From Zygnema cylindricum (Eukaryota; Streptophyta; Zygnematophyceae; Zygnematales; Zygnemataceae), in contig JBBHKE010000834.1 of NCBI GenBank assembly GCA_037447655.1, positions 332,499-396,498 of the forward strand: 64,000 nt of DNA. The letters are read 5' to 3'. Under the pieces are notes generated by a model that searched no databases, had not been told where the DNA came from, and was given only the letters and a program-made list of their open reading frames with translations. Below, in pieces: positions 5,947-42,988 of this stretch (positions are counted from its first letter, which is position 1; the number at the start of each line of letters is the position of its first letter). A program made the translations under genes and the position numbers.

Positions 5947-7249
5947 ATGGCCCCCCCTTCTCAGCTGGTTTTGCAGACAGGACAAAAAATAAATTCCGTA
6001 CCTATGTTGTCCATGCAGCTCAACCGTTCAGTTTCCGTTGGACTCCCAATTGTCCAATCGGTGCCCTCCGTTAAACTAGTGGGTCACAACCATTCTTATT
6101 TCCGAATAAAAAATAACTTACAACAGGAAACTCTTACTTTAACTGAAAATCCTTCCTCTTTTTCCTCAAATTTTTCCTCAGATTTTCAGAAACCTTCTTC
6201 GCCGTCTCCCTCTTCCTCTCCCTCTCCCTCGCCCTCGCCCTCGCCCTCGCCCTCGCCCTCTCCCTCTCCCTCTCCCTCTCCCTATCCCTCTCTTTCTTCC
6301 TTTTCCTCTTCCTCTCTCTCTCCCTCTCCCTCTCCCTTCAACGAATACGACAGCGAACACGGGCGACATCGTGGTTTTGGAGCCCTCGCTATCCGGTCTC
6401 CTTCCAAGGAAACTTCCTGGCAATTGCCTCGGCAATCTCCTTCCGAGGAAACTTCTCGGCAATTTCCTTTTAATGGAACGGATGAGACCGCATCTCGACC
6501 GTCGATTTCCGAATTTGACTCTACGGGGGAAGAAGCGAAGCCCTCCGATAAAATACGGGAAAATGACGATATAGCGTTACATTTACCTGAACTGAGAGAG
6601 GTTTTGGCAATGTTAAAAGAAAAAAAAATGAAAGAAAATAGGGGGAGAGGGAGAGATTCCGGAGATACGAAGCCTGGAAATGTGTTTTTGGTCGGAACGG
6701 GACCTGGGGATAGTGAGCTTCTCACGTGTGAGTTTTCGGGGTTTAACTTCCTTTGGGGTTTTATTTTACAAGTTTTTGGGTTTTCAACCTCAAGGTTTTT
6801 ATAATTATTGGGTTTCAACTTTCAAGTTTCACTGAGATGAAAAAGTGAAAGATTTTTTTGGGTTTTGTCCAAATTCTGGAGTGAGTTAAAATGCTGAAAA
6901 TTATCATGTATTGTTACCAAACAGACGATTTGTCTCTTTTGTTGTTGTTGTTATCCTGTTCCATTGAAAGCGTACCTACCGCCCTGTCGTAGAATAGTGG
7001 GAAAAATGAAAAAAAAAAAACACTTTTTTCGTCATTATTTGTTTTTTATTTGTAAGCTCTGACAAGGACTTCGTTTTCTTTTTCTTTTTTTGTCGTTTTC
7101 ATATTTCAGTGAAAGCGTACCGTCTATTGCAGTCGGCAGATCTTGTCCTTTATGATCGTCTCGTAGCGACCGATATCCTCGATATGATTCGCCCCGAGGC
7201 TCGACTCCTTTATGTCGGGAAAACCTCCGGATACCACAGTAGGACACAG
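5947..7249 (+). CDS. UPM1: uroporphyrinogen-III C-methyltransferase (SUMT), first two exons
   Basis: The family transfers two SAM methyl groups to uroporphyrinogen III to make precorrin-2, for siroheme in plastids. Exon 1 is 5947-6727 (donor gtgagt) and exon 2 is 7110-7249 (acceptor ttcag, donor gtgaat); the codon split across them restores the frame. Residues 1-80 look like a Ser/hydroxy-rich transit peptide. Residues 83-130 are Ser-Pro repeats. From about residue 244 comes the family signature VGTGPGDSELLT-LKA, then ADLVLYDRLV and RLLYVGKTSGYHSRTQ, all diagnostic. The start is the first ATG after the GA tract, in a good context. Only 307 residues are found. The rest of the methyltransferase domain (GGDP loop onward) was not seen downstream, where transposons follow, so the gene is 3'-truncated, or its further exons are very distant or decayed. 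Family assignment is confident; functionality is not. Confidence 0.85.
6188..6339 (+). repeat. coding microsatellite (Ser-Pro repeat in SUMT exon 1)
   Basis: CCCTCG/CCCTCT repeats encode alternating Ser-Pro at residues 83-130, between the leader and the catalytic domain. The tract is in frame. Plant SUMT proteins normally have a short linker here, so this looks like a lineage-specific expansion. Confidence 0.85.
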
Positions 7250-7388
7250 GTGAATTCTTTTTAAATATTTTTTCTTTAGTATATTTTTGGTAACACGGTT
7301 TTTCTAAGTGGGTACTTGATTTAATATGATTTTTTAGTGGGTATTTGATTTAATATGGTTTTTTTAGTGGGTGAATTTATGATTCGGG

Positions 7389-40100: not shown

Positions 40101-42988
40101 AAATTTGGAATCTCAACCGTTGTACCGGAGTCGTGGGCGCTTTCAATTGCCAGGTATTCAATGATTTCATTATAATGTTGCTTAAGTTTTTCCTTTTGAA
40201 TCACTTGTGTTTTTGAAGAAATAGTTTTTGTTTTTGTAAGAAATCCAAAGAGTCACTTTTGTTTTTGTTATATATATCCATATATATGTATATGTAGTAT
40301 ATGTGTATATATAGAAATGTAAAACAATTTCTTCATCATATTGCTACCCTTGTATTTATGAAGATATCATTTAAAAACTGGGTGTTAAGTGGATAAGAAA
40401 CATTTGATCCATGATTCAATAGCAGAGTGAATATACGAAAAGAGTGTAACAAAAAGTATACTAAAATTAATTTGAGTTTGTAAAATAGGAGATGTTTTTT
40501 GTGAATCCTAATGTGGTAACTTTGTTCCTTTTGTAAAGTGGAGAGAAATTATTTGATTCGTGATTCAAAACGTACGAAGTCTGTGACAAAAAGTAATCTT
40601 CCGAAAGGAAGAGTTCACAATATTTGAGTTTGTTAAATAGAAAATGTCTCTCGAGTACTTTAAAAATGGTTACTTTGCTCTTTTTGGGACTTGTAGGGCG
40701 TTGGGTGGTTTAAAACGGATAGGAAATATTTGATCCACAATTCAAATAGTAGAGTAAATTTATAAGAGTTTGTAAAGAAAATGAAAACCTAAAAGTAAAT
40801 TTTATTTTTTTGGGGACTTGTAGGGAGCTGGGTGGTGTAAAGTGGATAGAAAATATTCAATCCACGATTCGAATCCGGCGGCTGTTACGGGTTCTATGTG
40901 TGCCATGGATGTGGATGCTTTGAAAACATTAACGGCCGAGGATTGGGAGGGAGAGACAGCAATCTACTCCCATAAGGAGGGTATGTGTTATTTTTTCTCC
41001 TTTACTTTTGCTTTTTGTATGATATCTTCATGATTAATAAGGCTATTTGTTAGTGGGACCATGGAAATTAGTGTTGTATATTAGGCAAATATGTATTTTT
41101 GGGGGGTCTTGATAACCGATATATTGTGTCGATATGTCGTGTCGCTAATAATTGTGATATATGGATATTGTGATCGCGATATCATCAATAATCGTACCAT
41201 TATTTCCTTAACCCTTCAAACGTTTTTTTCTACGCGTTGAGGCTGAAAAAAGTTTCCCAGTAGAGTATGCTTTCAATTTTTGTTGGTGATTTTTGATTGT
41301 TTTGTTTTTATGAGTATTGATTTTCAATGTGTCTTTGGATTGGTCCCTTGTTGAAAGTACTAAAGTTTTTTAGTCAATCTCTTTACATATGTTTGGGACT
41401 TTTAGTTGACTTGGAAATTATGTCTAGCTTGAAACTTGATTTTTAAAGCGAACTTGCTTTTTTCCATTTTGAATGTGTGCTAAGGTATAACTGTATTTTC
41501 TGATTATTTAGTTTGTAGGTTTTTCCAGGTGGAGACAATTGTGCGTTACATATGTCGTGTCATCGATTGAAATTGTTTGAAGACGTGACTTATTTATTTC
41601 TTTGGGCAAAATCCGTTTCTTTGTTTCTGTACTGTGTAGGTGAACTGAGGAGATTGTCTGAGAACGGAACTGTAGCAGTGACTTTGGATTCGTTGGACTT
41701 CGAAATTTATACCGTTTCGCCGATAAAGGTGTGTTCGCTGTTAAACTTTATAATGTGTAAGTATATATGTGCATATACATATTACTATATTATGTATGAT
41801 ATTTACAACTTATTCAGTCGTACCGATTAAGGTGTGTTTGCTATTTGAGATCCCACAATGGAATCGGTCCTTATCGACATTGAAAAGAATATACCATTTA
41901 AATCATAGTCACCGCATTCGTTTAAGAATATTCTCCAGTTGGTCATATTCGCCCAAGAATATTTGGCAAATGCCGAACCCCATTCGTCTCATATGTGGCA
42001 CTAAAATTACAAGGTTAGATTTTTATTTTTGTCTTATGATTGAAAAATATAAAACATGTATATATACATTTTGCAGCTTTAAAGGGATAGATTGATTTTA
42101 TACAGTGGACACGACAAAAACCCAGAGTCCAATTCAAAGGAAGACAATTAGGATGAAAATCATTTCAAGGAGAGTGTAACTTTATAAACTAAAAGCAAAA
42201 TAACAAGATTTAGCCGACATTTTTGCCTATCTCAGCTTAAGAGAAAGAAGTGATGGAGAGATATGGAAAATTAATAATGACTACCTTCAATGTGAAGAAA
42301 TGGGCTAGGAGCTTCTGTAAAACTTTTTCAGAAACATCCTTACTCTTGCTACCGTTTCTCACAGTAACATTTGGTTGTTACACTACAGTAATTGCATTTA
42401 GCGTTCATCACAATAATTTGGTGCCGGTCTTTTTGCCTTCTGACCACAAAAACACTAAATGTTAATAGCATTAAAAAACACTAAATGTTTTTTTCTTCAT
42501 GCTAATTCTTTAAACGGTTCCAAACTAGCGACGTCATTTGGAACTGAATTAGAATGTAGCAGAAAAAACTATCTTATCTTTGGCTTTTGCACCTATTAGT
42601 CACATTAATATGTCCAATATTTCCAACTTCCATTGATTGATTCTTTCAAAGTTGTGAAAATTGTTGCTAATCAACGTTTCATATTCCCTTCCATTTCTTT
42701 TTTTGTCTTTTGCAGAAAATGAATTCATCTTTGGCTTTTGCCGCTATCGGTCTCATTAACATGTTCAATTCCGGCGGTGCGATCTTGTCCGTCAATTATT
42801 CTTCAAAAGTTGTGAATATGAAAGTACGAGGTTGTGGGGAATTTGGAGCGTACTCGTCCGAGAAACCTTCTCTTTGTTTAATCGATTCGAGGGAGGTCGA
42901 TTTTACGTACGATTCCGTTAAAGGAAAACTCGTAATCGTTTTGGAGCATAGAGCCGGTCATGTCTGGGACGTGACAGTCGAGTTTTAG
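34114..42988 (+). CDS. raffinose synthase / SIP-family glycosyl hydrolase (GH36), 5' part missing
   Basis: Family members transfer galactose from galactinol to sucrose or act as alkaline alpha-galactosidases in the cytosol. Exons A-K: 34114-34218, 34988-35116, 35504-35914, 36767-36848, 37244-37303, 38337-38404, 38818-38952, 40093-40153, 40824-40980, 41640-41728, 42716-42988. All have GT-AG junctions and one frame to TAG, 522 residues. Signatures: [33 protein letters not shown] (nucleophile Asp), [14 protein letters not shown] (acid/base region), [52 protein letters not shown]. It resembles SIP/alkaline alpha-galactosidases more than stachyose synthases, as no long insertion is present. Plant proteins are about 750 residues, so about 240 N-terminal residues are missing. 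They were not found upstream, where transposons sit. The visible part has no stops or frameshifts. Confidence 0.93.
36240..36310 (+). pseudogene. decayed copy of the SIP exon D acceptor region
   Basis: 'ttttgcagacaagttgtatt' then 'tgttgtaagaatgcagataa' parallels 'ttttgcaaacaagttgtgtt' then the true acceptor and exon D start at 36767. A further repeat of the sequence just after it is found at 36477-36540. Confidence 0.6.
37860..38240. repeat. (TA)n/(TATG)n microsatellite in SIP intron E
   Basis: About 380 bp of alternating TA with interspersed TATG/TACA. Open frames of Tyr/Ile repeats on both strands are artefacts. Probably unstable and cruciform-prone. Confidence 0.95.
38943..39320 (+). repeat. 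tandem repeat seeded at the SIP exon G donor
   Basis: Four to five diverged 70-100-bp units. Each starts like the exon G end (gataggcaaag|gtaaaatg) and continues 'tctcatctcaatttcatttt'. Copies start near 39010, 39111, 39182 and 39255. Confidence 0.75.
39393..39604. mobile_element. TA-type MITE, family C, copy 4, in SIP intron G
   Basis: Ends CACCGTGTATCGCTATTAG and CTAATAGCGATACTCGGTG, TA on both flanks. Arms carry 'cttaaaacatcttttctcc' and complement. A family D-like degenerate segment follows to about 39815. Confidence 0.85.
40374..40755 (+). pseudogene. three decayed copies of SIP exon I start with acceptor
   Basis: Copies at about 40374-40430, 40526-40575 and 40683-40755 resemble the true acceptor and exon I start at 40812-40870. 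The nearest has 'ttgggacttgtag|ggcgttgggtgg' against 'ttggggacttgtag|ggagctgggtgg', then 'ggataggaaatatttgatcc' against 'ggatagaaaatattcaatcc'. The unit period is about 130-155 bp. Confidence 0.82.
41806..41850 (+). pseudogene. decayed copy of SIP exon J end plus donor
   Basis: 'cgtaccgattaag|gtgtgtt' followed by 'tgctatttgag' parallels the true 'cgccgataaag|gtgtgtt' then 'cgctgttaaac' 103 bp upstream. Confidence 0.7.
42558..42665 (+). pseudogene. decayed copy of SIP exon K start with acceptor
   Basis: About 108 bp: 'gcagaaaaaact', then 'tatctttggcttttgc', then 'attaatatgtccaat', then 'tctttcaaagttgtgaa', matching the first 100 bases of exon K (from 42712) in order, 155 bp upstream of it. 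Confidence 0.85.

Follow-up and report, generated by a model that had tools for sequence, protein, structure and literature searches.

We find that introns of the genes SUMT, SIP and PAN, within a 64,000 nt stretch of Zygnema cylindricum DNA (GCA_037447655.1, JBBHKE010000834.1 positions 332,499-396,498, forward strand; the window), hold decayed tandem copies of the adjacent exon edge and its splice junction, which we call echoes, and that this pattern extends beyond the window to unrelated genes elsewhere in the genome. Very probably, ordinary short tandem duplications have sometimes spanned splice junctions and left decaying copies in the introns. Of 37 exon edges, 7 had a junction-spanning copy (at least 8 bp on each side of the junction) in the intron next to them (p<1e-3 against dinucleotide-preserving shuffles), or 8 when SIP K, with 4 intron bases, is counted, a rate inflated because the window was chosen for its echoes. 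Under the same rule the edges matched non-adjacent introns in 0/704 comparisons; 36 edges were examined in the first test and 37 of the 39 defined in the second.

Exon-edge copies in SUMT, SIP and PAN

The initial annotation had named seven edges with copies in the adjacent intron (SUMT 2; SIP D, G, I, J and K; PAN), and had asked for a comparison with shuffled introns; all seven exceed the shuffled expectation at p<1e-3. The exon edges follow from rebuilt gene models. SIP exons B-K join into a single open frame of 487 aa, which matches the relative P0001 (765 aa) at 90% identity over its whole length; P0001 was taken as spliced because its longest contig has 3,062 bases. In PAN, exons 3-9 share one continuous reading frame, with the limits of exon 2 uncertain, and SUMT exons 1-2 are in frame after the end of exon 1 was moved by hand by 1 base to 6727. 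At SUMT exon 2 both edges are echoed:

7110..7249, + strand: SUMT exon 2, reference copy (tblastn 83.7% to Mesotaenium SUMT; AG/GT at both ends)
7378..7479, + strand: echo copy 2, exon 2 end, donor and intron start (matches 53/67 in the exon and 19/32 in the intron; GT retained; in-frame stop)
7553..7678, + strand: echo copy 3, exon 2 end and donor (matches 45/53 in the exon, with 1-bp gaps there, and 43/65 in the intron; GT retained)
6930..6976, + strand: echo of the exon 2 acceptor (matches 12/12 in the exon and 25/35 in the intron; no AG left; p=3e-4)

The donor echo forms an array of three copies, the exon copy counted, and exceeds shuffles at p=1.7e-6, while the acceptor echo is an extra edge, absent from the seven named initially. 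SUMT queries from three other species match the echo at 7390-7446 by tblastn, in frame with a stop, the matches being weak (E 0.01 to 0.2). In SIP, echoes accompany both donors and acceptors:

36767..36848, + strand: SIP exon D, reference copy (C-D-E joined by open frame; P0001 match)
36214..36296, + strand: first array copy, echoing the D acceptor (matches 10/13 in the exon and 52/68 in the intron; no AG left; p=4e-7)
36420..36487, + strand: middle D-array copy, covering the intron side alone (50/67)
38818..38952, + strand: SIP exon G, reference copy (P0001 match 97.8%)
39010..39242, + strand: three echoes of the G donor (39010-39073, 39114-39170, 39183-39242; exon parts 11/12, 9/10, 9/12; intron parts 35/47, 33/43, 32/42; GT lost, kept, kept)
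40824..40980, + strand: SIP exon I, reference copy (P0001 match 92.3%)
40381..40747, + strand: three echoes of the I acceptor and exon start (40381-40417, 40532-40587, 40661-40747; exon parts 30/37, 40/53, 41/51)
41640..41728, + strand: SIP exon J, reference copy (I-J-K joined by frame)
41807..41845, + strand: echo of the J donor (matches 17/25 in the exon and 12/14 in the intron; GT retained; p=4e-4)
42716..42987, + strand: SIP exon K, reference copy (P0001 match 77.2%)
42559..42661, + strand: echo of the K acceptor and exon start (exon part 73/96, frame-breaking gaps; AG present with a 2 bp shift)

With the exon copy counted, the arrays comprise three copies at D and four each at G and I, and the G donor, I acceptor and K acceptor echoes have p=8e-7, 1e-12 and 3e-6 against shuffles; the intron-side overlap of the K echo is just 4 bp. 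The nearest I copy keeps AG and 28/33 intron bases, and the other two alignments end short of the junction. At all five amino-acid differences between this nearest copy and exon I, it is the exon that agrees with P0001 (translated by hand). P0001 carries no insertion at the echo edges in the alignment. The echoes sit in introns and the SIP joins agree with P0001, the sole comparison, so a new intron within a former exon is not the case here. The PAN echo, which the initial annotation had placed at exon 8, is a real acceptor echo of the exon that is number 9 in the rebuilt model:

16110..16280, - strand: last PAN exon, reference copy (exons 3-9 joined by frame)
16341..16394, - strand: echo of its acceptor (matches 12/14 in the exon and 31/39 in the intron; AG retained; p=6e-8)
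18080..18393, - strand: decayed tandem array wholly within an intron of PAN and clear of any exon (direct repeats by self-BLAST, lowest E 6e-7)

The last of these arrays lies off any exon, and the process is therefore not confined to edges. The nearest offset lies between 50 and 200 bp in 14 of 17 echoes, within a test that covered offsets from about 50 to about 1,500 bp.

Echoes in other genes and in intron interiors

Unselected TCP1/Cpn60 genes of the same assembly, a less biased sample than the window, carried an echo at 8/86 edges versus 1/860 in the introns of other genes, which takes the pattern beyond the loci to which it might have been limited. This sample held 53 of 63 matches in 13 genes, 10 Cpn60 rows having been left out (near-duplicate contigs C315, C2437 and C1411, and the second C598 copy), and of the 90 edges defined in it 86 were tested. 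The Cpn60 edges, like those in C1452, were placed heuristically from GT/AG near profile or tblastn ends and some are wrong; in C1452 no edge was assigned to SUMT exons 1, 2 and 7b.

Copies lie in direct orientation next to their source, matching their own intron and not others, and direct repeats far outnumber inverted ones. Within window introns, direct repeats were found at 38/212 interior pseudo-edges versus 2/212 for inverted repeats, with simple sequence masked by excluding positions where it made up more than 25 of 100 bases. Without masking, the counts were 60/328 direct and 14/328 inverted in introns, and 75/1911 direct and 58/1911 inverted in intergenic regions, one of which, at 22.5-34.8 kb, takes in SIP exon A with a short part of the intron that follows the same gene's exon. 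In masked TCP1 introns the contrast was weaker than in the window (49/1575 direct versus 17/1575 inverted).

Decay of the copies

Between the window echoes and their exons, differences at codon positions 1, 2 and 3 numbered 23/152, 25/152 and 45/151, counted over 14 copy pairs that are non-independent. These counts fit a 1:1:2 ratio (p=0.91), the pattern of one free and one protein-constrained copy. The TCP1 echoes alone have no third-position excess (16/77, 8/77, 10/76), and with window and TCP1 echoes pooled 1:1:1 is rejected only at p=0.047. Divergence at codon positions 1 and 2 is ~16%, at which a hand calculation expects GT or AG to be retained in ~14/20 copies; it was kept in 12/20 as read from the alignments (7/10 donor and 5/10 acceptor echoes, SIP K being counted as kept despite its 2 bp shift), about what neutral decay predicts. 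Of the duplication followed by loss of one splice copy that the initial annotation envisaged, the duplication stands and the loss is unneeded. Gap-free runs of 50-100 bases do occur, in fewer copies than it stated, most alignments having small gaps.

Alignment of five near-duplicate pairs of stretches (28.5 kb in total, 91-99.7% identity) showed 22 indels of at least 6 bp. None was a 50-200 bp tandem duplication in this small sample, which gives no sign that the process is frequent today.

Origin of the copies

A recurrent tandem duplication across exon boundaries, with one copy decaying in the intron, had been put forward initially; it fits most tests and recurs in unrelated genes. Short tandem duplications, mostly 50-200 bp apart, would arise in and around genes, probably from fill-in repair of staggered breaks. 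Where one spans a junction, correct mRNA could come only from the copy touching the exon body, and the other copy would become extra intron, free to mutate. Pairing of splice sites across the exon would let the correct site work straight after the duplication, and repeated rounds would give arrays of two to four copies and a longer intron. We infer this order of events and a net growth of the introns, the lengthening being suggested by the arrays.

Exon edges might instead be true duplication hotspots, for example through nick pairs tied to transcription or splicing, with introns growing chiefly by copying their own edges, which we consider unlikely though worth weighing. TCP1 edges exceed intron interiors about 3-fold (6/66 versus 49/1575, p=0.02). 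Simulation with uniform ages gave edges a detection bonus of 1.24-fold, which falls short of this, and the plain background model may therefore be incomplete; likewise, 5/6 intron arrays found by BLAST touch an edge versus 2.1 expected (p=0.02). However, the SIP D array reaches its edge by focused search only, and 4/6 gives p=0.11. Window edges are also much like interiors (8/37 versus 38/212, p=0.65, the edge count using a looser overlap rule than the interior count, whose stricter rule gives 7/37), a constrained copy decays more slowly, and tests at neighbouring positions are non-independent. Were edges such hotspots, the echoes would preserve ancestral exon sequence and former splice sites across the whole genome, as a fossil record.

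It is very improbable that the copies are functional parts of alternative or mutually exclusive exons. Several have GT/AG and the third SIP I copy is in frame over its 17 codons, but SUMT copy 2 contains a stop and frame-breaking gaps occur in SUMT copy 3 and the SIP K copy (the codon-level check of stops and frame covered the window copies), the copies are partial exons only, and P0001 is without such an insertion. Chance resemblance, in which AT-rich or pyrimidine-rich introns look like splice regions, does produce simple-repeat matches without exon overlap (the acceptors of PAN exons 4 and 5, C575 and the C440 acceptor) and could account for the 3/86 inverted queries at p<1e-3 in TCP1, for which spanning was not required; as a source of the echoes it deserves almost no credence, the dinucleotide-preserving shuffles being beaten, the non-adjacent introns already contradicting it in the window and in TCP1 alike, and 37-96 coding bases being aligned at SUMT 2, I and K. 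Equally implausible are dispersed transposons or introners with splice sites inserted beside exons: Copia elements do occur in the window, but the copies hold the neighbouring exon's own codons and match their own intron only, and the SUMT echo is not a dispersed repeat, since in the dispersed-copy search, genome-wide for this locus only, query 7110-8110 matched among 40 scored candidates only its own locus, one near-identical contig and GA-rich simple sequence.

If ordinary duplications across splice junctions are the source, the echoes offer a view of intron growth without transposons, which is difficult to trace since intron sequence of great age can no longer be recognised; an echo anchored in a conserved exon is recognisable and datable. 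This genome could directly measure the rate at which short duplications span splice sites and persist, and could show how splicing copes with a pair of competing sites. Ancestral exon states can be preserved too: the SIP K echo retains a proline codon, as does P0001, at a position that is alanine in today's exon K (translated by hand).

Relation to known duplications

A description of exon-edge echoes as a genome-wide feature, of which the initial annotation knew none, was not found in the open-licence literature searched; related single cases have already been published. Patch-repair tandem duplications of plants were reportedly described by Vaughn & Bennetzen in 2014 and by Schiml et al. in 2016, and internal gene duplication, as Gao & Lynch are said to have described it in 2009, deals with annotated genes in which exons and introns are duplicated. 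Like the latter, the echoes are within-gene duplications that include splice junctions; they differ from it in being unannotated edge fragments.

In the potato RdRp gene, a tandem duplication across an intron-exon boundary created a new intron (PMC4974935); there, as here, the duplication crosses the boundary and splicing hides the extra copy, but that case is a new intron in one gene, whereas the echoes extend introns already in place, are old and decayed, and affect about one edge in 11 in unselected genes (8/86). In rice, local direct tandem duplications of 50-200 bp, of the patch-repair type, are a leading source of inserted DNA (PMC7971508); the echoes are likewise local, direct and mostly 50-200 bp apart, yet unlike those recent insertions between rice genomes they are old and decayed and often recognised through their counterpart in a conserved exon. 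In Drosophila, intron sliding and exon duplication moved or created intron positions, and the authors report that no sequence similarity survives (PMC2891723); both systems involve duplicated sequence with splice sites and one copy intronised, but the copies here are still recognisable and intron positions were compared with the SIP relative only. Partial duplications of MSH1 in green plants, such as exons 4-16 inside intron 14 in Vanilla planifolia (PMC10487979), also place partial gene copies within their own intron; these are multi-exon copies in one gene, unlike the short tandem exon-edge copies in many genes described here.

Some minor observations concern other features. Near 63.4 kb, a weak match to a GPx domain (E 0.009) did not hold up when the sequence was read and was dropped, and the direct repeat at 18552/19278 was rejected as an echo, being two functional PAN-domain exons. 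A scan for SIP in contigs of bacteria and archaea found 27 loci, every one bacterial by title.

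Gene models behind the exon edges

Three genes were rebuilt from the window sequence:

SUMT, plus strand, uroporphyrinogen III methyltransferase
SIP, plus strand, raffinose synthase/seed imbibition family
PAN-domain gene, minus strand

The joined SIP exons B-K give 487 open codons, and the closest database relative, the 765-aa protein P0001, is 90% identical across all 487 residues. P0001 has 765 codons and its longest contig measures 3,062 bases, so we treat it as spliced; tblastn with this protein returned the same SIP exons, with no insertions at the SIP echo edges. Residues 1-241 of P0001 had no tblastn match in the window (34107-34225 and upstream), and contig C2162 begins with matches to the N-terminal part of Raffinose_syn (116-4287, minus strand), so the assembly seems to have split the SIP gene. 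For SUMT, the best-matching relative comes from Mesotaenium, which points to a streptophyte alga, perhaps a zygnematophyte, as the source; tblastn found no SUMT exons beyond exon 2 in the window. Window positions 3929-7861 are 99.75% identical to contig C1452 (minus strand), which runs on into the rest of SUMT; the window's contig diverges at a GGGAGG repeat near 7861, through a misjoin, a haplotype difference or a duplication.

Decayed copies of exon edges in the window

According to the initial annotation, the edges of neighbouring exons recur in decayed form (echoes) within introns of all three genes, and our tests bear this out. Each query, up to 50 bp of exon plus up to 50 bp of intron, was aligned to the adjoining intron, with significance judged from dinucleotide-preserving shuffles. 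Of the 36 edges tested, eight reached p < 1e-3 with both exon and intron bases matched:

SUMT exon 2, acceptor and donor
SIP exons D, I and K, acceptors
SIP exons G and J, donors
Last exon of the PAN-domain gene, acceptor

Under a stricter rule of at least 8 bp on each side, 7/37 edges pass (SIP K, with 4 intron bases only, drops out), and the same queries gave 0/704 in non-adjacent introns. In tblastn, the SUMT sequences of Mesotaenium, Selaginella and Sphagnum each matched the first SUMT echo weakly (E-values 0.01, 0.1 and 0.2); the match keeps the frame but contains a stop. Arrays of several copies cover much of some introns, that in SIP intron H-I (40381-40823) filling about two thirds of its 670 bp. 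Just upstream of SIP exon A lies a 288 bp direct repeat (33270-33557 and 33773-34060, 503 bp apart), which at 94% identity is younger than the echoes.

Echoes elsewhere in the assembly

We searched the window's assembly (352,776,454 bases, 2689 contigs) for the Cpn60/TCP1 family, a less biased sample than a window picked for its echoes: 63 exon matches, of which 53 were used, in 13 genes. Twenty stretches were retrieved, and 86 of 90 edges tested. Spanning echoes at p < 1e-3 occurred at 8/86 edges (9%), with alignments such as 72/93 and 74/85 identical:

Contig C278, two donors
Contig C2321, one donor and three acceptors
Contig C440, one donor
Contig C598, one acceptor

The same edges gave 1/860 spanning matches in introns of other Cpn60 genes, and the pattern is therefore not confined to the window loci; an inverted control, in which spanning was not required, gave 3/86 at p < 1e-3. 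Contig C1452 carries the full SUMT gene, whose 10 further edges yielded one spanning echo (exon 4 acceptor, 47/58, AG kept, p = 2e-9), whilst at the exon 3 and exon 6 donors adjoining intron sequence is copied without exon overlap. A copy of the whole last SUMT exon (410/459 identical, with an in-frame stop) also lies ~2.4 kb beyond it on C1452 (minus strand, locus L081). Pooling all samples, 17/133 edges carry an echo (13%, 95% CI 8-20%; 10 acceptors, 7 donors), a rate biased upwards by the choice of the window for its echoes.

Are exon edges special?

Within window introns, interior pseudo-edges had a direct spanning copy at 38/212 positions and an inverted one at 2/212, and true edges (8/37, or 7/37 by the interior's rule) did not differ from these interiors (p = 0.65). 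Intergenic regions of the window gave 49/1639 direct and 55/1639 inverted; they include Copia-type elements at about 28400-31500 and 47800-51000 (both minus strand), which match gag, integrase and reverse transcriptase. At the Cpn60 loci, intron interiors gave 49 direct and 17 inverted copies of 1575 and gene flanks 20 and 5 of 745; edges, at 6/66 under the interior's masking, lie 3-fold above interiors (p = 0.02), neighbouring test positions in these edge and interior counts not being independent. In simulation, protein constraint on one copy gave a detection bonus of 1.24 at uniform ages, and 2-3 and more for old copies. A true but modest enrichment at edges is possible.

Fate of the copies

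In 14 window copy pairs, which are not independent, exon parts are 362/455 and intron parts 364/489 identical. From first to third codon position the differences number 23/152, 25/152 and 45/151 and fit 1:1:2 (p = 0.91), as expected when one copy mutates freely and the other is under protein constraint. The Cpn60 set alone has no third-position excess (16/77, 8/77 and 10/76); pooled differences (39, 33 and 55) fit 1:1:2 (p = 0.24), and 1:1:1 is weakly rejected (p = 0.047). Divergence at positions 1 and 2 is ~16% in both sets (48/304 window, 24/154 Cpn60).

Several echoes had also been said to keep GT or AG; 12/20 copies do so (7/10 donors, 5/10 acceptors, read from alignments). A hand calculation at ~16% divergence predicts survival of ~14/20, so neither selective retention nor selective removal of echo splice sites is indicated. 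Hand translation of the nearest SIP I copy shows P0001 siding with the exon at all five amino-acid differences. In SIP K, a proline is common to the echo and P0001 where the exon has alanine (hand translation), which makes the echo the older witness at that site.

Proposed origin and known systems

For 14/17 echoes the offset to the nearest copy is 50-200 bp, the test having covered offsets from ~50 to ~1,500 bp. A rice study names tandem duplications as the most frequent insertions, with an excess at 50-200 bp, and attributes this to patch repair where nicks lie close together (PMC7971508); PMC8355091 deals with a mechanism at break ends. By analogy, we infer that echoes arise from the same event class as in rice. 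Were a duplication to span a junction, the copy adjoining the exon body would still yield the right mRNA and the other would turn into intron; at acceptors the downstream copy would be the working one, and cross-exon splice-site pairing would presumably have to beat the upstream AG.

Such events are themselves of a known kind: one tandem duplication over an intron-exon boundary made a new intron in potato (PMC4974935), intron sliding and exon duplication are reported from Drosophila (PMC2891723), and partial copies can sit within a gene's own introns in MSH1 (PMC10487979). What seems new is their abundance as decayed copies within existing introns of one genome, of which the literature searched held no prior record.

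Recent activity and other duplications

A result against this reading comes from 28.5 kb of alignment between near-duplicate stretches (five pairs, 91-99.7% identity): among its 22 indels measuring 6 bp or more, five reach at least 20 bp, and none of the 22 is a 50-200 bp tandem duplication. On a rough estimate, the window's rate would predict a few such duplications in 28.5 kb, and the Cpn60 rate about one.

The Cpn60 near-duplicate loci (L073/L074, L076/L083, L078/L084 and L067/L068; 91-99% identical, on separate contigs or 5 kb apart) recall the copy-number variation described in Closterium (PMC10407611). A scaffold gap of ten N lies at window 13900-13909. Two PAN-domain exons (18552-18772 and 19278-19495), ~60% identical, are a whole-exon duplication with both copies still open, which may reflect the echo-forming process at a larger size. 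Contig C2614 has two tRNA-synthetase matches of equal score (G000:C2614:159648-159869 and 163176-163397), separated by 3.5 kb and each listed with a 1509 aa open frame; they are perhaps a duplicated intronless copy.
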